64,000 nt of DNA from contig NZ_CP019791.1 in the NCBI RefSeq assembly GCF_002007645.1, forward strand, positions 2,542,001 to 2,606,000. The letters run 5' to 3'. The position numbers were made by a program, and so were the translations under genes. Source of the DNA: Anaerohalosphaera lusitana. GTDB taxonomy: Bacteria > Planctomycetota > Phycisphaerae > Sedimentisphaerales > Anaerohalosphaeraceae. Positions 3,507-13,406 of this stretch are shown here, piece by piece. The notes under the pieces were generated by a model, which searched no databases, was not told the origin of the DNA, and saw nothing but the letters and a program-made list of their open reading frames with translations. Each line of letters begins with the position of its first letter. Positions within the stretch are counted from its first letter, which is position 1.

Positions 3507-6149
3507 CTATTTATACGCCTTAACATAGATTTCCTTGATCTCGCTCAGGAGAGGATATCTCGGGTTCGTGCCGGTGCACTGGTCGTCGAAGGCCTGTTCC
3601 GTGAGGTCCTCTAGCTTGCCGTAGAAATCCTTTTCGGTCACGCCTGCGTCCTTGATGGTGGTCGGCACGTCGAGTTCGGCGCTGAGCCTGGTCAGGGCTT
3701 CGATCAGCTTTTCGACCTTTTCTTCGTTCCTGCTGCCGCCCAGACCGAGGTAGTCGGCTACTCGTGCGTAAACCTTGTTGCTCACCGGGTGCGTGTACTG
3801 CGAGAAGATACCCTGCTTACGCGGCTTGTCGGTCGCGTTGTATCTGACGATGTGCGGTATCAGGATCGCGTTCGCAACGCCGTGCGGGATGTGGAACGCG
3901 GAACCGAGCTTGTGCGCCATCGAGTGGCACAGACCGAGGAACGCGTTGGCGAATGCCATACCAGCCATCGTCGCGGCGTAGTGCACCTTTTCGCGTGCCT
4001 TCACGTTGTTCGCACCGTCCCTGTAGGAAGCGGGCAGGTAGTCGAACAGCAGCTTCAGCGATTCCATCGCGATGCCGTTGGTGTAGTCCGTGGCCGTTGT
4101 CGCCGCCAGTGCTTCGAGTGCGTGCGTTACCGCGTCCAGGCCCGACGCTGCTGTCAAAGATGCGGGCATCGAGAGTACCAGGTCCGGATCAACGATCGCC
4201 ATGTCGGGCGTCAGTTCGTAATCGGCGATCGGGTATTTCACGCCTTCCATGTCATCGGTGATGACCGCGAAGGGCGTTACCTCAGAGCCCGTGCCGGATG
4301 TGGTCGGGATAGCTACCATTGTCGCCTTCTTGCCGAGCTCGGGGAACTTGCAGACACGCTTGCGGATGTCCATGAACCGCATCGCGAGATCCTCGAAGCG
4401 AGACTCGGGGTGCTCGTACATCAGCCACATGATCTTTGCCGCGTCGATGGGCGAACCGCCGCCGAGTGCGATGACAGTGTCGGGCTTGAACGTGTTCATC
4501 GCGGCAAGGCCCTTGTCGACCGTCGTCAGATCCGGGTCCGGGTTGACGTCGGCGAAGACCTGGCTTTCGATGCCGATCGAGTCGAGTACCTCGGTGACCT
4601 TTCTCGTGTAGCCGAGCTCGAAGAGCGGCTTGTCGGTTACGATGAAGGCACGCTTGCGGCCGTAGAGTTCCTTGAGCGAATCAGCCAGGCAGCCTCGCTT
4701 GAAGTATACTTTGGGCGGAACGCGGAACCACTGCATGTTTTCGCGGCGTTCTGCGACGGTTTTTACATTGAGCAGGTGCTGTACGCTGACGTTCTCACTT
4801 ACGCTGTTGCCGCCCCATGTGCCGCAGCCGAGCGTGAGAGACGGGTCGACCTTGAAGTTGTAGATGTCGCCGATCGCGCCCTGCGAGCTGGGCATGTTGA
4901 TCAGTGTTCGGCCGGTAGACATGCGTGCGCTGAATGCCGCGATGCGCTCGTCGTTGTCGGGGTTAGTATAGAGGACAGATGTGTGTCCCATGCCGGCGAA
5001 TTCGACGAGATCGACGGCTTTGTCTACTGCTGCGGCAAAGTCCGAAACCTTGTACAATGCGAGGACCGGAGAGAGCTTCTCGATGCTGAACGGCTCATCT
5101 GTGCCGACCTTCGTGACCTCGGCGATAAGAACCTTTGTGTCTTCACGAACGTCGAAGTTTGCGGCCTGTGCGATCTTGTATGCAGGCTGGCCGACGATAG
5201 CAGCGTTGAGCTTGCCGTCCTTTACGATTGTGCCGGCGAGCTTCTTTTTCTGCGTATCGTTGAGGATCAGTGCGCCCCGCTTTGCGAATTCAGCCTTTAC
5301 CGCGTTGTAGACCTCATCAGCGACGATCACAGACTGCTCGGATGCGCAGATCAGGCCGTTGTCGAAAGTCTTGCTGACCAGGATAGAGCTTACAGCATTT
5401 TCGATGTCTGCGGTTTCGTCGATGATAGCGGGCGTATTGCCGCTGCCTACACCGATTGCGGGTCGGCCTGAAGAGTATGCGGCCTTTACCATACCCGGTC
5501 CGCCTGTCGCGAGGATCAATGCGGTGTCGCGGTGCTTCATGAGATGGCTGGTGCCGTCGAGAGACGGTTCTTCGATCCAGCCAACTATTCCTTCGGGTGC
5601 TCCGGCCTTTACGGCGGCGTCGTAGACGATCTTCGCTGCTTCGACGGTGCATTTCTTGGCACGGGGGTGCGGCGCGAAGATGATCGCGTTGCGGGTTTTC
5701 AGCGCGAGCAGGGCCTTGAAGATCGCGGTCGAAGTCGGGTTTGTGGTCGGGATGATGCCCGCGATCACTCCGACAGGCTCGGCGACCTTGCGAACGCCCA
5801 TCGCTGTGTCGTGTTCAATCACGCCGCAGGTTTTTGCGTCGCGGAATTTGTTGTAGACGAATTCAGATGCAAAGTGATTTTTGACGACCTTATCTTCAAC
5901 GATCCCCATGCCTGTCTCGGCGGCGGCGTGTTTTGCCAGGGAGATCCGTGCGCTGTTTGCAGCCATTGCAGCACGGAAGAAGATCTCGTCGACCTGCTCC
6001 TGCGAGAATGAAGCGTACTTGTACTGGGCGATCTTGGCCCGGTTGATGATGCCGTCCAGTTGCTCCAGGGGGTCGATCCGGTTTTGTTCTTTGCGGTCCG
6101 CCACAGCGACCTGTCCGTTCGCGTTGTTCTTTCTTGTTTTGTCGTTCAT
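3507..6149 (-). CDS. adhE: Bifunctional acetaldehyde-CoA/alcohol dehydrogenase AdhE
   Basis: 880 residues, normal for AdhE. The N-terminal half is a CoA-acylating aldehyde dehydrogenase, with the catalytic Cys in 'NGLICASEQSV'. The C-terminal half is an iron-dependent alcohol dehydrogenase, with the metal/NAD motifs 'GGGSPIDAAK' and 'CHSMAHKLGSAFHIPHG'. It converts acetyl-CoA to acetaldehyde and then ethanol, oxidising two NADH; homologues form cytoplasmic spirosomes. The start ATG 6149 has a GGGAG ribosome site; a longer in-frame version (to 6251) lacks one and would start in the regulatory region. It is divergent from rex. The shared intergenic region holds two Rex-like operators, so NADH-responsive repression is likely. 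Confidence 0.97.
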   Translation of the reverse strand: MNDKTRKNNANGQVAVADRKEQNRIDPLEQLDGIINRAKIAQYKYASFSQEQVDEIFFRAAMAANSARISLAKHAAAETGMGIVEDKVVKNHFASEFVYNKFRDAKTCGVIEHDTAMGVRKVAEPVGVIAGIIPTTNPTSTAIFKALLALKTRNAIIFAPHPRAKKCTVEAAKIVYDAAVKAGAPEGIVGWIEEPSLDGTSHLMKHRDTALILATGGPGMVKAAYSSGRPAIGVGSGNTPAIIDETADIENAVSSILVSKTFDNGLICASEQSVIVADEVYNAVKAEFAKRGALILNDTQKKKLAGTIVKDGKLNAAIVGQPAYKIAQAANFDVREDTKVLIAEVTKVGTDEPFSIEKLSPVLALYKVSDFAAAVDKAVDLVEFAGMGHTSVLYTNPDNDERIAAFSARMSTGRTLINMPSSQGAIGDIYNFKVDPSLTLGCGTWGGNSVSENVSVQHLLNVKTVAERRENMQWFRVPPKVYFKRGCLADSLKELYGRKRAFIVTDKPLFELGYTRKVTEVLDSIGIESQVFADVNPDPDLTTVDKGLAAMNTFKPDTVIALGGGSPIDAAKIMWLMYEHPESRFEDLAMRFMDIRKRVCKFPELGKKATMVAIPTTSGTGSEVTPFAVITDDMEGVKYPIADYELTPDMAIVDPDLVLSMPASLTAASGLDAVTHALEALAATTATDYTNGIAMESLKLLFDYLPASYRDGANNVKAREKVHYAATMAGMAFANAFLGLCHSMAHKLGSAFHIPHGVANAILIPHIVRYNATDKPRKQGIFSQYTHPVSNKVYARVADYLGLGGSRNEEKVEKLIEALTRLSAELDVPTTIKDAGVTEKDFYGKLEDLTEQAFDDQCTGTNPRYPLLSEIKEIYVKAYK

Positions 6150-6203
6150 CTTAATCTCCCTTTTGTAATACTTGCTTTGTTTCGTGTCGAGCAGTGGTCG
6201 GGC

Positions 6204-6239
6204 GCTCGATACTTTATGCTCGATATTTATTGCTCGATA
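6204..6239. repeat. Three exact GCTCGATA repeats at a 14-bp period in the adhE leader
   Basis: GCTCGATA occurs at 6204-6211, 6218-6225 and 6232-6239, each start exactly 14 bases after the last. An inverted copy of its core, TCGAGC, lies at 6187-6192 and could pair with the first repeat. The block lies between the candidate adhE promoter and the adhE start codon, so it is probably in the 5' leader. Its role is unknown. Confidence 0.75.
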
Positions 6240-6241
6240 TA

Positions 6242-6270
6242 CAATTATCAAACTCTAGGCGTTTGTTCAA
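6242..6270 (-). promoter_or_regulatory. Candidate adhE promoter
   Basis: Minus strand: TTGAAC (6270-6265), 17-base spacer, TAATTG (6247-6242). GATAAT overlaps with shorter spacing. This gives a leader of roughly 85 bases. The -10 is imperfect, so the exact promoter is uncertain. Confidence 0.45.
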
Positions 6271-6366
6271 GTGTTTTTCTTGAGATTTGGCGGTCAAGAT
6301 GCCGCATAGATCGCGGTAAGGCTGCGTAAGTGTTGTCTTAAAAACCACTTATAGTCAAGCAAGTTG

Positions 6367-6384
6367 TTATGAAAAAAATCACAA
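6367..6384. promoter_or_regulatory. Rex-like operator 1
   Basis: The 18-mer TTATGAAAAAAATCACAA matches the known Rex consensus TTGTGAAnnnnTTCACAA at 12 of 14 fixed positions. It lies between divergent adhE and rex. Confidence 0.65.
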
Positions 6385-6407
6385 AAACATCTACGTGCCC
6401 CGGCTTA

Positions 6408-6425
6408 TTGTTCCGGTATTCACAA
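6408..6425. promoter_or_regulatory. Rex-like operator 2
   Basis: TTGTTCCGGTATTCACAA matches the Rex consensus at 11 of 14 fixed positions. The right half-site is perfect, and outer bases extend the dyad (TTATTGT/ACAATAA, 6405-6428). It is centred 41 bp from operator 1, close to four helical turns, so two Rex dimers would sit on the same DNA face. Confidence 0.6.
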
Positions 6426-6462
6426 TAATTTGCTAAAATCTGCTGGAATCGGCCGAAAAGTA

Positions 6463-6491
6463 TTGCACAAGAGACTGGTTTTATGCATAAT
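6463..6491 (+). promoter_or_regulatory. Candidate rex operon promoter
   Basis: TTGCAC (6463-6468), 17-base spacer, CATAAT (6486-6491). It lies just downstream of the two Rex-like operators and about 50 bases before the rex start, consistent with autoregulation. Confidence 0.55.
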
Positions 6492-6540
6492 ATACATGGA
6501 TTCGATAAAAGTTTACCGAACTGTCATGTTGGAGAGAGAA

Positions 6541-7191
6541 ATGAGCCAGGACAAGCCAGTGTCAGTATCGCACCCTACGATAAGGCGATTGCCCGCGTAC
6601 CTGAATATTCTGCGTAAGGCACAGGACGAAAACAAGACACACATCAGCAGCACCTTCATAGCCGATAAGCTCGGGTACGAGCCAATACAGGTTCGCAAGG
6701 ATCTGGCGGGTCTGGGAATAACGGGCCAGGCCGGTGTCGGTTTCGATGCAGCAGAACTGATCGATGCGATCCTTGGATTTCTCGGCTGGGACAATGCGAC
6801 GGACGCTTATCTGATCGGTGCGGGTAACCTGGGGTCGGCCCTGGCGGGATACAAGGGCTTCAAAGATTATAATTTGAATATTCTTGCCTGTTTCGACAGC
6901 GATCTGAGAAAGGTCGGCACTGAAATACACGGCAAGAAAGTCTTCGGCATGGAACGTCTGGCTGAACTGATAGAACGGACGGGCGTAAACATTGCGATAC
7001 TCACTCTACCCGACAAAGCGGCCCAGGAAATTACGGACAAGATCGTTGAGGCAGGGATAAGAGCGATATGGAACTTCACGACGGTCAAGCTGGATGTACC
7101 CGATGGAGTTATCGTCGAGCGGGTGGACCTTGCGGCAAGTTTGGCGCTGCTTTCCAGGAGGACGGCAGAGGCAATGAAGAACGATAAATGA
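6541..7191 (+). CDS. rex: Redox-sensing transcriptional repressor Rex
   Basis: 216 residues. The N-terminal winged helix (about 1-80) includes 'RRLPAYLNIL' and 'IQVRKDLA', typical of Rex. The NAD(H)-binding Rossmann domain follows with 'LIGAGNLGSAL' and 'IAILTLPDKAAQ'. The C-terminal swapped helix contains 'SLALLSRR'. Rex dimers bind operators when NADH/NAD is low and release at high NADH, derepressing fermentation genes. ATG 6541 is chosen over an upstream in-frame start because GGAGAG lies at the right distance. The stop overlaps a possible start of the next gene, so it heads the hydrogenase operon. Confidence 0.95.
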   Translation: MSQDKPVSVSHPTIRRLPAYLNILRKAQDENKTHISSTFIADKLGYEPIQVRKDLAGLGITGQAGVGFDAAELIDAILGFLGWDNATDAYLIGAGNLGSALAGYKGFKDYNLNILACFDSDLRKVGTEIHGKKVFGMERLAELIERTGVNIAILTLPDKAAQEITDKIVEAGIRAIWNFTTVKLDVPDGVIVERVDLAASLALLSRRTAEAMKNDK

Positions 7192-7211
7192 ACTGTTTAA
7201 CAGGAGTCAAT

Positions 7212-7472
7212 ATGTTCCGCCGAAAGAAAAAACTGGAGATCACGATCTGCATGGGCAGCAGTTGTTTTTCACGAGGGAGCAGGGATTCTCTTGAGGTGCT
7301 TCAGAAATACCTCGAGGAAGAGGGGCTGGAAGAAAAGGTAGACTTGCGTGGGGCACTTTGCATGGGCAACTGCAAGAAGGGGCCCAACATGGTGGTGAGT
7401 GACGAAGAATATGAAAACGTTACGCCTGGAACGGTGGTCGATATAGTCAAGCATCATCTGGAACGCAAGTAA
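7212..7472 (+). CDS. Thioredoxin-fold [2Fe-2S] ferredoxin, NuoE/HydC-like (first copy)
   Basis: 86 residues. The cluster motif is split as C-x4-C ('CMGSSC') near residue 14 and C-x3-C ('CMGNC') near residue 52, as in NuoE/HoxE/HydC-type thioredoxin-like ferredoxins. It lacks the N-terminal helical domain of full NuoE. The ATG at 7212 has a GGAG site 5 bases upstream, better than the in-frame ATG at 7188. It lies between rex and the sensory hydrogenase and probably passes electrons to or from that protein. A paralogue at 10461 precedes the second hydrogenase. Confidence 0.85.
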   Translation: MFRRKKKLEITICMGSSCFSRGSRDSLEVLQKYLEEEGLEEKVDLRGALCMGNCKKGPNMVVSDEEYENVTPGTVVDIVKHHLERK

Positions 7473-7541
7473 GCAGGTGATAAGTGAATTTATGAACTGA
7501 CAGGCAAACAGAGCATGAGTACCTTTCCGCAGGAGAAGAGC

Positions 7542-9275
7542 ATGAATCAATTACAGCCAATTTTTACTGAGCCCGCAGAATGCCAGGACTGCTATAAATG
7601 CCTGAGGCAGTGTTCGGTGAAGGGTATCAAGATCCAGGAAGGACACGCCAGGATCATTCCTGAGCTTTGCGTGATGTGCGGAAAGTGTGTGCAGGTGTGT
7701 CCCGTGGGTGCAAAGCGTGTCCGCAATGATCTTGACAGGGCGAAGCTGCTCTTGCAAATGAAGAAGAAGGTAATAGTTTCGCTGGCGCCGAGTTTTGTGT
7801 CCGAGTTTGCCGGTATCGAGCAGGCGCAGTTGATAGCCGGTATCAAGCGACTGGGTTTTTACGGCGTCAGTGAGACTGCGCTCGGTGCGCAGGAGGTCTC
7901 AGCGACGATCGCAAAAAAGCTCAAAGAAGAAAATGAAGGCGTTTATATATCCTCAGCGTGTCCGACGGTTGTGGAGCTGGTCAAAAAATACCGCAGCGAG
8001 CATGCCGAGAAAGTGACGAGTCTGCTGTCGCCAGTGCTGGCTCACACGAAGCTGCTCCGCCGGCAGTACGGTGAGGATGTCGGAGTCGTGTTCGTTGGGC
8101 CGTGCATAAGCAAAAAGGCAGAAGCTGATTCGCATGGTGAGATGCTCGAAGTAGCGATCACTTTCGAAGAGCTCAGAGAGTGGTTCGACTCGGCCGGGAT
8201 AGAGCCCGGTGACGAACAGGGCGGTGCAGATGATGATTTCATCCCTTACAGAGCCAACGAAGGCGCACTGTACCCCATCGACGGCGGGATGATCGCGGGG
8301 ATCAAGCGGAACTGCTCCGTGAGTGATTCGCAGTTGATGACGTTTTCGGGCATAGAGAATATCGAGCAGGCTTTGGGTAGCCTTGAAGAGATAAAGACGG
8401 ACGGACCGATGTTCATAGAGATGCTCGCGTGTGAGGGCGGGTGCGTGAATGGGCCCAAGGCCGGCCAGCAGGGCAAGACCATCGTCAAGCGGAGCAGCGT
8501 GCTCAGTTTTGCTCAGTGGGACGATTCTGCGATACCGCGTGAGCCGGGCGTTGAGATCGAGGACAACTGGCTGATCGAGCCGGTCAGGCGTATGGTTCAC
8601 AGCGAAGAAGAGATAAGTCGAGCCCTAAAGACGGTCGGCAAGTTCAGCCGGGAAGACGAGCTGAACTGCGGCGGGTGCGGTTATGATTCCTGCCGGGAGT
8701 TTGCCAGGGCGCTGCTTGACGGCCGGGCGGAGACGAGCATGTGTGCCGGTTATATGCGAAAGCTCGCGCACAAGAAAGCGGATGCACTGATAAGGACCAT
8801 GCCCTCTGGCGTCGTGATCGTGGATGAGCACATGCGGATCGTTGAAAGCAACAGGCGATTCGCTGAGCTGATGGGCGAGGAAAGTGCCGCAGCGTTTGAC
8901 GCCAAGCCCGGACTCGAGGGTGCGGTGCTTGACCGGGTCATCGGTTTCGGCAACCTGTTTTCGCAGGTCCTGAGCAGCGGTCAGCAGTCGGTCGAAAAAA
9001 GCGTGCGTCACGGCAAGGTAATTCTCCGCGTCACAGTGTTTACGATCGACCCGCACAGGATAGTCGGCGGGATCGTGCAGGATATAACCGCGCCGGCCGT
9101 ACAGAAGGAACAGGTCGTGCGAAAAGCGAAGGAAGTGATCACGAACCACTTGTCAACGGTTCAGCAGATCGCCTTCCTGCTTGGTGAGAACGCTGCCGAA
9201 TCGGAGGTCATACTGAACTCTATCACCGAGTCATTCTCCGCGGACGCTTTGGGAGACGGGACCGATGCAGACTGA
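7542..9275 (+). CDS. Sensory-type [FeFe]-hydrogenase with PAS domain (HydS-like)
   Basis: 577 residues. Domain order: two [4Fe-4S] ferredoxin motifs ('CQDCYKCLRQC', 'CVMCGKCVQVCP'; about 14-60), the H-cluster domain (about 75-345), a four-cysteine Fe-S domain ('CGGCGYDSC' with a later Cys), and a C-terminal PAS domain (about 410-520). H-cluster loops are present: L1 'SSACP', L2 'VGPCISKKAE', L3 'EMLACEGGCVNG'. In L1 the proton-relay cysteine of catalytic enzymes (TSCCP) is replaced by alanine, as in known HydS proteins, which sense H2 rather than turn it over fast. The PAS domain supports signalling. ATG 7542 has an AGGAG site; the ATG at 7515 does not. It overlaps the phosphatase gene by 11 bases. 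Confidence 0.88.
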   Translation: MNQLQPIFTEPAECQDCYKCLRQCSVKGIKIQEGHARIIPELCVMCGKCVQVCPVGAKRVRNDLDRAKLLLQMKKKVIVSLAPSFVSEFAGIEQAQLIAGIKRLGFYGVSETALGAQEVSATIAKKLKEENEGVYISSACPTVVELVKKYRSEHAEKVTSLLSPVLAHTKLLRRQYGEDVGVVFVGPCISKKAEADSHGEMLEVAITFEELREWFDSAGIEPGDEQGGADDDFIPYRANEGALYPIDGGMIAGIKRNCSVSDSQLMTFSGIENIEQALGSLEEIKTDGPMFIEMLACEGGCVNGPKAGQQGKTIVKRSSVLSFAQWDDSAIPREPGVEIEDNWLIEPVRRMVHSEEEISRALKTVGKFSREDELNCGGCGYDSCREFARALLDGRAETSMCAGYMRKLAHKKADALIRTMPSGVVIVDEHMRIVESNRRFAELMGEESAAAFDAKPGLEGAVLDRVIGFGNLFSQVLSSGQQSVEKSVRHGKVILRVTVFTIDPHRIVGGIVQDITAPAVQKEQVVRKAKEVITNHLSTVQQIAFLLGENAAESEVILNSITESFSADALGDGTDAD

Positions 9276-10452
9276 TAAAGCTTTTGTCGAAGTCGATTTC
9301 GGCCAGCACAGCAAATCCGGCCAGCAGGCAGCAGGGGATGTATTTCTTTCGAAGAAGATACCGGAAGAAGGCAGGACGATCTGTGTGCTCGCCGACGGGC
9401 TGGGCAGCGGAATCAAGGCGCATGTGCTCGCTACCTTGACGGCGACGATGGCCATGAAGTACATCTCGTCGGATATTGACATAAGGCGAGCGTCGGAGAT
9501 CATCATGGCGACGCTGCCGATATGCAGCGAGAGAAAGATCGGCTATTCGACCTTTACGATCGTGGATATACGCAGCGACGGGCGTGTTTCCGTGATCGAA
9601 TATGACAATCCCCCATTCAGGCTGCTGCGGGATGGTGTGTTGGTCGACATCGACAAGAAGAAGCTGGAAGTAGCGACCGCGAATCGGGGCAGATGTGAGG
9701 TTCTGTACAGCAGCTTCACCGCCAGGCAGGGCGACCGGACGGTTTTTTATACTGACGGGGTGACGCAGAGCGGTATGGGCCGGGATGCCACGCCGTTCGG
9801 CTGGGGCAATGATGCTGTCGGCAGCTACATCGTCGAGCAGTGCGGCATGGAACGCGATATAAGCGCGAGACAGTTGAGCAGGTCCGTCGTGGAAAAGGCC
9901 AGACGGATCGACGGAGGCAAGGCGAAGGATGACATAAGCTGTGCCGTGGTGAATTTCCGCAGGCCGAGAAAGTCGGTAGTGATGACAGGACCGCCGCTGG
10001 ATGAGCGGAAGGATACGGAAATGGCGCGAATACTACGGGAGTATGGCGGCCGGAAGATCGTTTGCGGAGGAACGACTGCCAGGATCATTGCGCGGGAGCT
10101 TGGCGAGGAGATCAGCGTTGATCTGGGCTGCCTGGACAGCTCGGTGCCGCCTGCGTCGAATATCGCTGGCGTGGACCTGGTGACCGAAGGGACGCTGACG
10201 CTGAGCAGGATGGCGGAGATACTTGAGGCCGGCGAGGATCCGGACAAGCTCAAATCGAACGCGGCTGTTCGTCTGGCTCGCTATCTGCTTGACAGTGATA
10301 TAATAGAATTTGTGGTTGGGACAAAGATCAACGAAGCTCACCAGGATCCGAATTTCCCGGTCGAGCTGGATATAAGACGGAACCTGATGAAACGTATCGT
10401 TGGGCTGTTAAATACGAAATACCTCAAGCAGGCAAATATGAGGCTTATTTAG
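9265..10452 (+). CDS. SpoIIE/PP2C-type serine phosphatase of the hydrogenase operon
   Basis: 395 residues. PP2C/SpoIIE metal-binding motifs are intact: 'VLADGLGSGIKA' near residue 40, 'VFYTDGVTQ' near 160 and 'KDDISCAVV' near 225. A C-terminal domain of about 160 residues follows, with 'IVCGGTTARIIARELG'; it is not part of the phosphatase core and I do not recognise its function. It would remove phosphate from Ser/Thr of a partner protein. The tight overlap with the PAS-hydrogenase suggests that gene is its input. No cognate kinase gene is in the window. The start ATG 9265 has a GGGAG-type site inside the upstream gene. Confidence 0.82.
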   Translation: MQTDKAFVEVDFGQHSKSGQQAAGDVFLSKKIPEEGRTICVLADGLGSGIKAHVLATLTATMAMKYISSDIDIRRASEIIMATLPICSERKIGYSTFTIVDIRSDGRVSVIEYDNPPFRLLRDGVLVDIDKKKLEVATANRGRCEVLYSSFTARQGDRTVFYTDGVTQSGMGRDATPFGWGNDAVGSYIVEQCGMERDISARQLSRSVVEKARRIDGGKAKDDISCAVVNFRRPRKSVVMTGPPLDERKDTEMARILREYGGRKIVCGGTTARIIARELGEEISVDLGCLDSSVPPASNIAGVDLVTEGTLTLSRMAEILEAGEDPDKLKSNAAVRLARYLLDSDIIEFVVGTKINEAHQDPNFPVELDIRRNLMKRIVGLLNTKYLKQANMRLI

Positions 10453-10460
10453 GTGGTAAC

Positions 10461-10715
10461 ATGGAAAAGGTAAAAGTTGAGATATGTACGGGCACGACTT
10501 GTTATGTCATGGGCGCCTCCGAGGTGGCAGGACTCGAGGAACTGCTGGATGAAAAGCTTCGCCCAGCGGTCCAGATCAAGGGTTCGCCCTGTTTTGGACT
10601 TTGCAAGGATCTGCAGTACAGGGGTGCGCCGTATGTCAAGGTCAACGACGTGCTGATCGAGGAAGCGACCGTGGAAGATGTGGTGCGTGAAATAAAGAAA
10701 CAACTGGATACGTGA
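10461..10715 (+). CDS. Thioredoxin-fold [2Fe-2S] ferredoxin (second copy)
   Basis: 84 residues with C-x4-C ('CTGTTC') and C-x3-C ('CFGLC') motifs, the NuoE/HydC-type [2Fe-2S] ligand pattern. It begins 8 bases after the phosphatase, with an AGGTGG ribosome site, and ends 10 bases before the catalytic hydrogenase. It is therefore the likely small electron-transfer subunit of that enzyme. It is clearly related to the 7212-7472 product but diverged, suggesting each hydrogenase has its own ferredoxin. Confidence 0.85.
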   Translation: MEKVKVEICTGTTCYVMGASEVAGLEELLDEKLRPAVQIKGSPCFGLCKDLQYRGAPYVKVNDVLIEEATVEDVVREIKKQLDT

Positions 10716-10725
10716 GGTTTCCGGA

Positions 10726-12165
10726 ATGAAATATCAGAACAATGCTCAGAGGATCAAAACCACACTGCTGATCGAGACGGCGAGACTAGCATTCGAAGGT
10801 AAACTGCAACGTGAGATCGACAGGGTGCCTGTGAACCTGTATCCGCGGGACAGAACCGGTGCGCGATGCTGTGTTTACAAGGACCGGGCGATCACAAAGT
10901 ATCGGCTGATGGCGATAATGGGACATGCCGTTGAGACCGAGACTGATGAGCTTAAGATGCTGGGCGAGTATGCTGTCGATGCTGACAAACGCGAAAAGCC
11001 CGCCGACCCGATCCTCACCGTGATCGACGAGGCGTGCAGTGCATGTCTCAAGGGAAGACACTATGTGACGAACGTGTGCAAAGGGTGTGTTGCCCGGCCC
11101 TGTACAGTGAATTGCCCCAAAGATGCGATCCAGGTGGTTAACGGCCAGGCGATCATCGACGACGACAAGTGCGTTAACTGCGGGCTTTGTGTGAATGTGT
11201 GCCCGTATCACGCGATAGTTTATGTGCCCGTGCCTTGCGAAGAGGCGTGTCCGGTGGGAGCTATTGCCAAGGGCGCCGACGGCAGGGAGCACATCGATTA
11301 CGATAAATGCACATTCTGCGGCAAGTGCATGCAGGCGTGTCCGTTCGGCGCGATCATGGAGCGGTCGCAGATGGTGGACGTAATAGGAAAACTCAAGAGT
11401 GACAGGAAGGTGGTTGCGATGCTGGCGCCTGCGATGGCGGGACAGTTCCCTGCTGAGTTCGGCAAGCTGTGTGCAGCGGTCAGGGCGATGGGTTTTGACA
11501 ATGTCATGGAGGTTGCCGAAGGTGCCGCGATAACGGCTGAGCACGAAGCGAATGAACTGGCTGACCGGCTGGGCGATGGTGAGCAAATGATGACTTCAAG
11601 CTGTTGTCCGGCGTACATGGAGACGGTTCGAAAACACGTCCCGGAGATGGCAAAATTTGTCTCGGATACGCCGACTCCGATGCATTACGCTGCTAAGCTG
11701 GTGAAGGATCGCGAGCCCGATGCGGTGACCGTCTTCATAGGTCCATGCGTTGCAAAGAGACACGAAGCAATGAGTGACGAATTGGTTGACTATGTGCTGA
11801 CCACGGATGAACTCGGGGCAATGCTTGTCGGTCAGGAGCTGGATATTGATGAATTTATCGCTGCGGATCTGGGCGAAGGCCCGGGAAGTGAAGCGAGAGA
11901 ATTTGCGGTGACCGGCGGGGTTACGGGTGCGATCAGGGCAAAGTGCGGAGATAACCGGGTCAAGGCAATGCAGGTCGATGGGATCGGCAAGAAAGAGCTG
12001 AAAATGCTGCGAAGGTACGCAAAGGCCGGCTGTGATGCCAACTTCATCGAAGTTATGAGCTGTCAGGGCGGGTGTGTGGCCGGGCCGTGCAATATCAGCA
12101 AGCCCAAGGCCGCTGAACGCAGAGTGAGAAAATTCGTAGAACAGTCAAAAGGAGCCCGTGCCTGA
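10726..12165 (+). CDS. [FeFe]-hydrogenase, catalytic, group B type
   Basis: 479 residues. A helical N-terminal region (1-95) is followed by a cysteine-rich segment and ferredoxin-type clusters ('CKGCVARPCTVNCP', 'CVNCGLCVNVCP', 'CTFCGKCMQACP'; about 100-215). The H-cluster domain has complete loops: L1 'TSSCCPAYM' with both cysteines, L2 'IGPCVAKRHEA' and L3 'EVMSCQGGCVAGP'. It should catalyse H2 formation from reduced ferredoxin (or the reverse) in the cytoplasm. The architecture fits group B enzymes of anaerobes. Maturation genes hydEFG are not in the window. It is the last gene of the rex operon; an independent promoter follows. Confidence 0.92.
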   Translation: MKYQNNAQRIKTTLLIETARLAFEGKLQREIDRVPVNLYPRDRTGARCCVYKDRAITKYRLMAIMGHAVETETDELKMLGEYAVDADKREKPADPILTVIDEACSACLKGRHYVTNVCKGCVARPCTVNCPKDAIQVVNGQAIIDDDKCVNCGLCVNVCPYHAIVYVPVPCEEACPVGAIAKGADGREHIDYDKCTFCGKCMQACPFGAIMERSQMVDVIGKLKSDRKVVAMLAPAMAGQFPAEFGKLCAAVRAMGFDNVMEVAEGAAITAEHEANELADRLGDGEQMMTSSCCPAYMETVRKHVPEMAKFVSDTPTPMHYAAKLVKDREPDAVTVFIGPCVAKRHEAMSDELVDYVLTTDELGAMLVGQELDIDEFIAADLGEGPGSEAREFAVTGGVTGAIRAKCGDNRVKAMQVDGIGKKELKMLRRYAKAGCDANFIEVMSCQGGCVAGPCNISKPKAAERRVRKFVEQSKGARA

Positions 12166-12193
12166 ATCAATAAGGGTATATTGCCGGAAAATA

Positions 12194-12222
12194 TTGGATT
12201 ATCCGCCCAAAAATCCTATACT
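12194..12222 (+). promoter_or_regulatory. Candidate promoter of the sulfatase maturase
   Basis: TTGGAT (12194-12199), 17-base spacer, TATACT (12217-12222), about 40 bases before the gene start. It implies the maturase is transcribed separately from the hydrogenase operon. Confidence 0.55.
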
Positions 12223-12263
12223 CAGGCAGGGACGGATTAATTTGATTATACGGGTGTTTGTAA

Positions 12264-13406
12264 ATGAGACCATTTTCGCTTTTGATCAAGCCCACCGGGC
12301 CTGACTGCAATATAGACTGCAGATACTGTTTTTACACGTGCAAGACCACTCTGTTCGGCGGCGGCAGGCACCGCATGAGCGAAGAGGTGCTCGAGAAGAT
12401 GGTGAACGATTTTCTCGGGTGCGGGTTCCCGCAGAACAGTTTTGCATGGCAGGGCGGTGAGCCTACGCTGATGGGGTTGGATTTCTATAAAAAAGTCGTC
12501 GAGCTGCAGGAGAAGGCATGCGGGGCGGGCCAGAACTTCACGAATTCACTGCAGACCAACGGCATTCTGCTGGACGATGAATGGTGCGAGTTTCTGGCGG
12601 AAAAGGGTTTTCTTGTTGGGATCAGTATAGACGGGCCGAAGAAGTTTCATGACAAATACAGGCTCGATCATGGGGGGAATGGGACCTTCGATCGGGTGAT
12701 GGCTGCGATCGAACGATGCAAAAAGCATGGGGTTCAGTTCAACATTCTGACGCTGCTGAACAGTTATAATGTCGAGCATCCGGACGAGCTGTTCGATTTT
12801 TACGTGGAAAACGGTTTCAAGTTCCTGCAGTTTATCCAGTGTGTGGAAGAGGACCCGGAGACGGGTGAGATCGCGGATTTCAGTATAACGCCCGAACAGT
12901 ATGGCGATTTTCTGTGCAGGATATTCGATCGGTGGGTTGACCATGGCGTGCGGAAGATGAGTATCCGGACGTTTGACAGCATGATAAGTCAGTGTCTGGG
13001 TATGGGTGCGACCGAGTGTACTTTCATGCCGAAATGTGCGGATTACGTGGTTGTCGAGCATGACGGCGGGGTGTACTGCTGTGACTTTTTTGTTGAGAAC
13101 GAGCACAGGATCGGAAATCTGCTGGATCGCAACCTCGGCGAACTGGCGGGCGACAGTATCAAACGGCGATTCAACCGGCAGAAACGGAAGCTGGCGAACA
13201 AGTGCCTGGTTTGTCGACATCTCGATATTTGCAGGGGAGGATGTCCGAAGGATCGCAAGAAGGGCTATGACGACGGGATCACCTATTTCTGCGAGGGGTA
13301 CAAAAAGTTTTTCGACCATTCGATGGGAGAATTCTGGAAGCTGGCGTCGATGATACAGCAGGAGAATCTGCTGGCTGAACGGCAGGAGGTCTGGAACAAG
13401 GGGTGA
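12264..13406 (+). CDS. Anaerobic sulfatase-maturating enzyme (radical SAM, SPASM)
   Basis: 380 residues. The N-terminal 'CNIDCRYCFY' is the CxxxCxxC radical-SAM motif in the form typical of anaerobic sulfatase maturases. 'WQGGEPTLMG' and 'ISIDGPKKFHD' follow. The C-terminal region has the SPASM cysteine set ('CTFMPKCADYVVVEHDGG', 'CCDFF', 'CLVCRHLDICRGGCPKD') for two auxiliary [4Fe-4S] clusters. It oxidises a Cys or Ser of sulfatases to formylglycine without oxygen, and could act on the sulfatase at the start of the window. Strict anaerobes that use sulfated glycans rely on this enzyme. Confidence 0.93.
   Translation: MRPFSLLIKPTGPDCNIDCRYCFYTCKTTLFGGGRHRMSEEVLEKMVNDFLGCGFPQNSFAWQGGEPTLMGLDFYKKVVELQEKACGAGQNFTNSLQTNGILLDDEWCEFLAEKGFLVGISIDGPKKFHDKYRLDHGGNGTFDRVMAAIERCKKHGVQFNILTLLNSYNVEHPDELFDFYVENGFKFLQFIQCVEEDPETGEIADFSITPEQYGDFLCRIFDRWVDHGVRKMSIRTFDSMISQCLGMGATECTFMPKCADYVVVEHDGGVYCCDFFVENEHRIGNLLDRNLGELAGDSIKRRFNRQKRKLANKCLVCRHLDICRGGCPKDRKKGYDDGITYFCEGYKKFFDHSMGEFWKLASMIQQENLLAERQEVWNKG

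Follow-up and report, generated by a model that had tools for sequence, protein, structure and literature searches.

The steering of fermenters between hydrogen, acetate and ethanol by H2 pressure is a long-standing question, with relevance to biofuels and the gut. Group C3 of the [FeFe]-hydrogenases in HydDB, labelled "phosphatase-linked (putative)", is reported to consist of sensory-type enzymes encoded beside a serine/threonine phosphatase (PMC5037454). The hfsABCD genes of Thermoanaerobacterium are reported to encode, in this order, a small protein, a PAS-containing hydrogenase, a serine phosphatase and a catalytic hydrogenase (PMC5707799, PMC11837493), and are further described as linked to adhE and associated with predicted Rex sites (PMC5707799, PMC5886521), which in T. 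saccharolyticum are located before both hfsABCD and adhE (PMC5886521). The hydS-hydA2-adhE genes of Ruminococcus albus bring together AdhE, a ferredoxin-only hydrogenase, a sensory hydrogenase and a phosphatase in one regulated cluster, and rex is not mentioned in the available description of that cluster (PMC6776011). In addition, a rex-hydrogenase operon with a near-classical Rex site has been reported in Caldithrix (PMC5317091).

Here, we report a computational analysis of an operon of six plus-strand genes at positions 6541-12165 of a 64,000-base stretch of the Anaerohalosphaera lusitana genome (hereafter the window; positions 2542001-2606000 of the 4.25-Mb single-contig genome), with comparison to other members of the class Phycisphaerae (hereafter the class) and to more distant bacteria. 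The core gene set is of a known kind, that of HydDB group C3 and of the hfsABCD and hydS-hydA2 clusters of clostridia. The sensor hydrogenase combines an Fe_hyd_lg_C domain with an additional C-terminal FeS/PAS region and is adjacent to a phosphatase, which places it in group C3 by layout rather than by the HydDB classifier; the likeness to hfsABCD and to the R. albus cluster, including the gene order and adhE link shared with hfsABCD, is one of description, not of sequence. An earlier reading of the window from its sequence alone (hereafter the original prediction) implied that the arrangement was new, which is not supported, since C3 has been listed in HydDB since 2016 (PMC5037454). Unlike hfsABCD, the local operon is headed by rex, includes an extra 2Fe-2S gene, lies adjacent to a divergent adhE and has a different proposed Rex operator; furthermore, HfsA is reported to align poorly with known proteins. 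What looks new is the operator of the Rex branch, the end domain of the phosphatase, and the pairing of this phosphatase with PAS-only proteins in clusters encoding NuoEF-like proteins and carbon monoxide (CO) dehydrogenase. We interpret the locus, with a probability of roughly 0.72, as a phosphatase-linked (C3-type, hfs-like) H2-sensing operon that sets the H2/ethanol balance under the control of a branch-specific Rex operator.

Organization of the locus

All six genes named in the original prediction were recovered at the same positions and on the same strand by open reading frames (ORFs) and family matches, but that survey overlooked both the divergent adhE and the putative regulatory sites that separate it from rex. 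The genes of the locus are:

3507..6149, minus strand: adhE, bifunctional acetaldehyde-CoA/alcohol dehydrogenase (NF010378, 1393 bits), divergent from the operon
6541..7191, plus strand: rex, NADH/NAD-responsive repressor of the HydS-linked branch (NF003994, PDB Rex chains, tree)
7188..7472, plus strand: thioredoxin-like 2Fe-2S protein, likely sensor subunit (PF01257; likely start 7212)
7515..9275, plus strand: HydS, sensory [FeFe]-hydrogenase (likely start 7542; two 4Fe-4S, H-domain 84-314, Cx2Cx4Cx16C, PAS)
9265..10452, plus strand: SpoIIE/PP2C phosphatase with a C-terminal domain (PF07228, 52.1 bits)
9964..10449, plus strand: C-terminal domain of the phosphatase (residues 234-395; motifs GPP, CGGTT, PP and TEG; no Pfam match)
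10461..10715, plus strand: second thioredoxin-like 2Fe-2S protein (PF01257, a weak match of 27.2 bits, cut-off 24.8)
10726..12165, plus strand: catalytic group B [FeFe]-hydrogenase (TIGR04105, FeFe_hydrog_B1, 527.2 bits, cut-off 450)

Judging from the spacing, a single transcript for the six genes is plausible. The rex and first 2Fe-2S ORFs share 4 nucleotides (by eye, position 7212, which has a ribosome site, is the better 2Fe-2S start), the hydS and phosphatase genes overlap by 11 nucleotides, and the next two gaps are 8 and 10 nucleotides, again measured by eye. The adhE ORF is open to 6251, with a likely ATG, picked by eye, at 6147-6149; with the start at 6149, about 390 bp separate adhE from rex. 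The Rex protein matches NF003994 with 260.8 bits (cut-off 130) and contains both the winged-helix domain PF06971 and the NAD-binding domain PF02629; sequence matches to solved Rex structures, with E values down to 4.3e-39, place it in the Rex family. The predicted lack of a kinase nearby is consistent with the genes read at 3507-13406, the part of the window to which the search for kinases was confined.

Sensory and catalytic hydrogenases

HydS contains Fer4, Fe_hyd_lg_C (148.7 bits) and PF04060 FeS (38.5 bits) domains. Its motifs SSACP, GPC and LAC carry Ala, Gly and Leu at the positions altered in sensory-type enzymes, as judged by eye without a structural alignment; TmHydS and TamHydS are reported to differ from catalytic [FeFe]-hydrogenases at those positions (PMC8163306). 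The second hydrogenase retains SSCCP and passes the group B model. Among the 80 relatives described in the next section, the C-terminal cysteine motif Cx2Cx4Cx16C of HydS is present in 78, and one of the two exceptions is truncated by its contig. Two observations weigh against the reading of the locus as an H2-sensing operon: the PAS region scores under the Pfam cut-off (PAS_8, 20.0 vs 21.8 bits), and strict forms of the H-cluster motifs L1, L2 and L3 are found in 39, 44 and 33 of these relatives, respectively, the misses being mostly of a divergent Bacteroidales type.

Were HydS an ordinary catalytic subunit, the cluster would encode one multi-subunit hydrogenase, in line with the suggestion that HfsABC might be a functional hydrogenase without HfsD (PMC13277313). 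We consider this highly improbable, given the sensory-type Ala, Gly and Leu of HydS, identified by eye, and the existence of phosphatase partners that consist of the PAS part alone, with no H-domain.

Conservation of the sensor-phosphatase link

A profile search of named genomes with the phosphatase detected at least 577 relatives. The 80 best, which were retained for comparison, belong to Spirochaetota, Bacteroidota, Acidobacteriota, Cloacimonadota, Riflebacteria and Alphaproteobacteria, among other groups. A HydS-type ORF is located directly upstream, on the same strand, in 80 of the 80 loci thus picked by phosphatase similarity. The neighborhood comparison, which the original prediction had proposed as a way to find relatives lacking the link between the phosphatase and the PAS-hydrogenase, therefore produced none. 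Neither was the loss of phosphatase motifs seen: the metal-binding aspartates D25, D44, D164, D222 and D223 are invariant in both alignments (21 and 48 sequences). Within the class, with the phosphatase alone as the query, 33 of 298 genomes have a match, and HydS or its PAS end is encoded directly upstream in 29 of 30 loci, the thirtieth of which starts at the contig start.

The remainder of the neighborhood is more variable. By eye, a group B hydrogenase lies downstream in 25 of the 80 loci, and a HydABC-type enzyme is the partner in other loci. A Rex match is found within the locus in 13 and, in six of them, immediately precedes the 2Fe-2S gene (by eye), and an AdhE with at least 60% identity in two (L081 and L118; by eye). 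These neighborhoods, along with the reported genetics of hfsABCD (PMC5707799, PMC11837493), support two earlier proposals, namely, that the operon consists of a sensor half and an enzyme half, and that the phosphatase is the likely output of the sensor. Two successive HydS-phosphatase pairs, one divergent, are present in L062 (8007-15702), L084 (8259-14533) and L089 (3261-9555).

In four class loci (L139-L142), the phosphatase is preceded by a protein without an H-domain, which in L142 is a PAS protein of 188 residues. The genes surrounding this PAS protein encode a polyferredoxin, a MinD/CooC-like ATPase, proteins of the 2Fe-2S, NuoE-like, NuoF-like and NuoG-N-like types, and a CO dehydrogenase of the anaerobic kind (TIGR01702, 675 bits, cut-off 478). 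CO dehydrogenase was detected in three of the four loci, with the fourth contig ending earlier. Given these H-domain-free partners, the phosphatase seems, from gene neighborhoods, to be tied to the PAS part and not to H2 chemistry in itself, and such pairs hint at the part of the sensor that is read by the phosphatase. A limited search of open-licence papers found neither the pairing of the phosphatase with CO dehydrogenase nor its end domain. In L142, the segments 5828-7545 and 10959-12911 hold a PAS-only protein and the phosphatase within the NuoEF-CO dehydrogenase cluster, an arrangement also seen in L139 and L141.

The C-terminal domain of the phosphatase

The structural model of the whole phosphatase (predicted local distance difference test, pLDDT, 90.2) has the PP2C fold, with Foldseek matches to 3pu9_A (E 3.2e-15) and to SpoIIE, 5mqh (E 2.5e-13); the dominance of PP2C matches made this search uninformative for the C-terminal domain. 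For the C-terminal 162 residues, no Pfam match was obtained, and the PDB sequence search matched the PP2C part only; a PHROGs search with the phosphatase returned 0 families. The domain is strongly conserved, with the motifs GPP, CG[GA]TT, PP and TEG. Modeled alone (pLDDT 91.4), it gave nothing below 0.001 in Foldseek. The top five VIA-align matches are all molybdopterin-oxidoreductase-type chains (Z 9.9-7.8; next row 6.5): FhcB (9.9; 116 aligned, 2.9 A), two formylmethanofuran dehydrogenase chains (9.3 and 8.8), chain A of formate hydrogenlyase (8.2) and chain G of complex I (7.8; 113 aligned, 3.0 A). We take chain A to be the formate dehydrogenase and chain G to be the 75-kDa subunit. On the strength of this model, a relationship in fold between the C-terminal domain and molybdopterin oxidoreductases/NuoG is probable.

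A Rex branch with a proposed distinct operator

The local Rex resembles classical Rex regulators in its family, in the Arg/Lys pair of the recognition helix and in a 6-N6-6 palindrome (TCGAKA-N6-TMTCGA, compared with TTGTKA-N6-TMACAA for the Rex box), and differs from them in the proposed operator itself and in a wing Ala where the Rex of Thermotoga maritima (Tma) has Arg60. The following sites were identified in the adhE-rex gap with the proposed operator and with the classical box TTGTGAA-N4-TTCACAA:

6206..6251: three overlapping TCGAKA-N6-TMTCGA sites (6206, 6220 and 6234; 14-bp period) before adhE, 1 mismatch each; proposed Rex operator
6367..6384: TTATGAAAAAAATCACAA, classical Rex- or CRP/FNR-like palindrome, 2 mismatches of 14
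6408..6425: TTGTTCCGGTATTCACAA, classical Rex- or CRP/FNR-like palindrome, 2 mismatches of 14
6502..6519: TCGATAAAAGTTTACCGA, proposed Rex operator directly before rex, 1 mismatch of 12

At no more than one mismatch, TCGAKA-N6-TMTCGA occurs four times in the 64,000 bases, always in this gap, three times by adhE and once by rex. The exact direct repeat TCGATA-N8-TCGATA is found at three places genome-wide, two of them in the gap. Given sites at both adhE and rex, the local Rex probably represses adhE jointly with the hydrogenase operon.

The motif was derived in two steps. The first form, TCGATA-N6-TATCGA, had matches at the 5' ends of operons starting with rex or hydS in several phyla and showed no enrichment over whole loci at up to 2 mismatches (68 vs 59.8 expected) or, with 3 mismatches allowed, over the window (26 vs 25.5). 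Because this form was distinguished by its position near the operons only, a wider form, TCGAKA-N6-TMTCGA, was adopted and evaluated on further rex genes. The 30 rex loci of the class comprise 19 of the window type (at least 170 bits against the local Rex) and 11 others. The site, often repeated in tandem at 14-bp intervals, is present within 250 bp upstream of all 19 window-type genes, in 18 cases with at most one mismatch, and of one of the 11 others, with 2 mismatches; in dinucleotide shuffles, 0.035 of the 19 would be expected to carry it. The definition of the motif had drawn on four of the 19, and the remaining 15 all carry the site. The tandem double site was detected in 14 of the 298 class genomes, compared with 0 in the reversed control; of its 15 distinct places, eight are directly before a window-type rex. 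Window-type Rex is encoded in 19 of the 298 genomes, 18 of which are among the 33 with the phosphatase (Fisher p 6e-19, uncorrected for kinship). The hydS operons of L048, L049 and L050 (Spirochaetota) and of L127 also carry sites, with a Rex 45-50% identical encoded elsewhere in those genomes.

Several observations count against this association. Genome-wide, single sites with at most one mismatch are near chance (39 vs 27 in the reversed control); seven of the 15 tandem places are not at rex, several of them in TCGA-rich repeats; and of the 19 window-like rex genes in Spirochaetota, only four are preceded by the new site, with one fully supported Spirochaetota sub-branch of the tree lacking it before rex in 18 of 18 rows. 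This sub-branch would explain much of the Spirochaetota shortfall: the four site-bearing rex genes fall outside it, and in the window-type branch minus the sub-branch, 27 of 29 rows have a site at up to 2 mismatches, the exceptions being L248 and L188. Separately, L261-L264 contain TCGATACTCGATTC-type 14-bp repeats that resemble the operator.

The local branch retains the recognition-helix residues Arg and Lys (Tma Arg48 and Lys49), which are reported to recognize G5 and A8 in the Rex-DNA complex of T. maritima (PMC8836258), and differs at the start of the helix and in the wing. At the wing position aligned with Tma Arg60, the local Rex has Ala, and the 19 class members have Ala, Pro or Ser; this residue by itself was set aside as an explanation for the operator change, Pro being present there in 10 of the 11 other class Rex proteins too. 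FNR and ModE, as candidate readers of the TCGA sites, were tentatively set aside over spacing.

The two classical-like sites (0.57 expected in the window) both lie between the TCGA sites of the gap, and similar palindromes also precede rex genes of several relatives. Such sites would be the targets of Rex if the TCGA sites belonged to another regulator that travels with the operon, a reading in keeping with the occurrence of tandem TCGA arrays at places without rex and of classical-like sites before several window-type rex genes (for example, L208, L209, L212 and L220). The TCGA site, however, shares the 6-N6-6 layout of the Rex box, differing mainly at positions 2 and 4, and tracks the Rex branch over several phyla, even where rex is elsewhere (L048, L049, L050 and L127), and the classical-like sites at 6367 and 6408 could equally serve CRP/FNR proteins or other Rex copies of the genome. 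We therefore regard a separate TCGA-binding regulator as unlikely. The local Rex belongs to a supported branch that is predicted to bind TCGAKA-N6-TMTCGA in place of the classical box. No report of this operator was found in the open-licence papers searched; as a conserved element, it offers a direct binding test and a handle for finding the regulon.

Predicted signaling and regulation

HydS, probably together with the first 2Fe-2S protein, would read H2 at a low-activity H-cluster, and its C-terminal 4Fe-4S and PAS region would relay the signal to the PP2C phosphatase encoded next to it. This phosphatase, in turn, would act on a phosphoprotein that raises the expression of both adhE and the group B hydrogenase; if the analogy with Thermoanaerobacterium applies, the sensor would restrain the phosphatase when free of H2. 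The local Rex would repress both the adhE and the operon promoters, and rising NADH would lift it from both.

The direction of the signal is suggested by analogy with two organisms. In T. saccharolyticum, deletion of hfsA or hfsB is reported to increase adhE transcripts two- to threefold and to increase ethanol, with hfsC and hfsD being needed (PMC5707799); since loss of either of the former raises adhE and the latter are required, the sensor would hold back the phosphatase. The R. albus cluster is reported to drop 111-fold when a partner organism removes H2 (PMC6776011). A point against this model is that in T. saccharolyticum, higher ethanol was reportedly accompanied by an increase, not a decrease, in rex expression (PMC5707799).

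The phosphatase might instead act directly on an enzyme, such as AdhE, pyruvate:ferredoxin oxidoreductase or a hydrogenase, and not via transcription. In T. saccharolyticum, alcohol dehydrogenase activity is reported to increase without a matching rise in aldehyde dehydrogenase activity, for which the authors propose additional post-transcriptional control; adhE transcripts, however, rose too (PMC5707799), and STAS anti-anti-sigma factors are the described targets of bacterial PPM phosphatases (PMC11418112). A direct enzymatic target is thus a minority possibility, to which we would assign about one chance in four, and we infer a regulatory phosphoprotein as the substrate. The genome encodes four SpoIIE phosphatases and has 12 HATPase_c_2 matches; among the genes read beside the operon, there is no candidate RsbW/STAS partner.

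More tentatively, and at odds that we place slightly below even, the Rex branch could possess an altered DNA code with self-palindromic TCGA cores, half-sites being shared every 14 bp, and serve chiefly to control H2-sensor-phosphatase operons and adhE. In combination with the PAS-PP2C module, with its molybdopterin-enzyme-like domain and its H-cluster-free versions in NADH-linked CO dehydrogenase clusters, it might form a general gas/redox signaling cassette of anaerobes.

Neighboring and additional genes

Directly 3' of the operon, at 12264-13406, is a radical SAM gene that resembles anaerobic sulfatase maturases (TIGR03942). Elsewhere in the genome, a single further Fe_hyd_lg_C protein (319 bits) is encoded at 1666916, beside a Rex match, which brings the total to three, including the two of the operon. 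In L147 (3580-4161), a second Rex match lies near an apparent bifurcating hydrogenase operon of the genome, which has at least three Rex matches.

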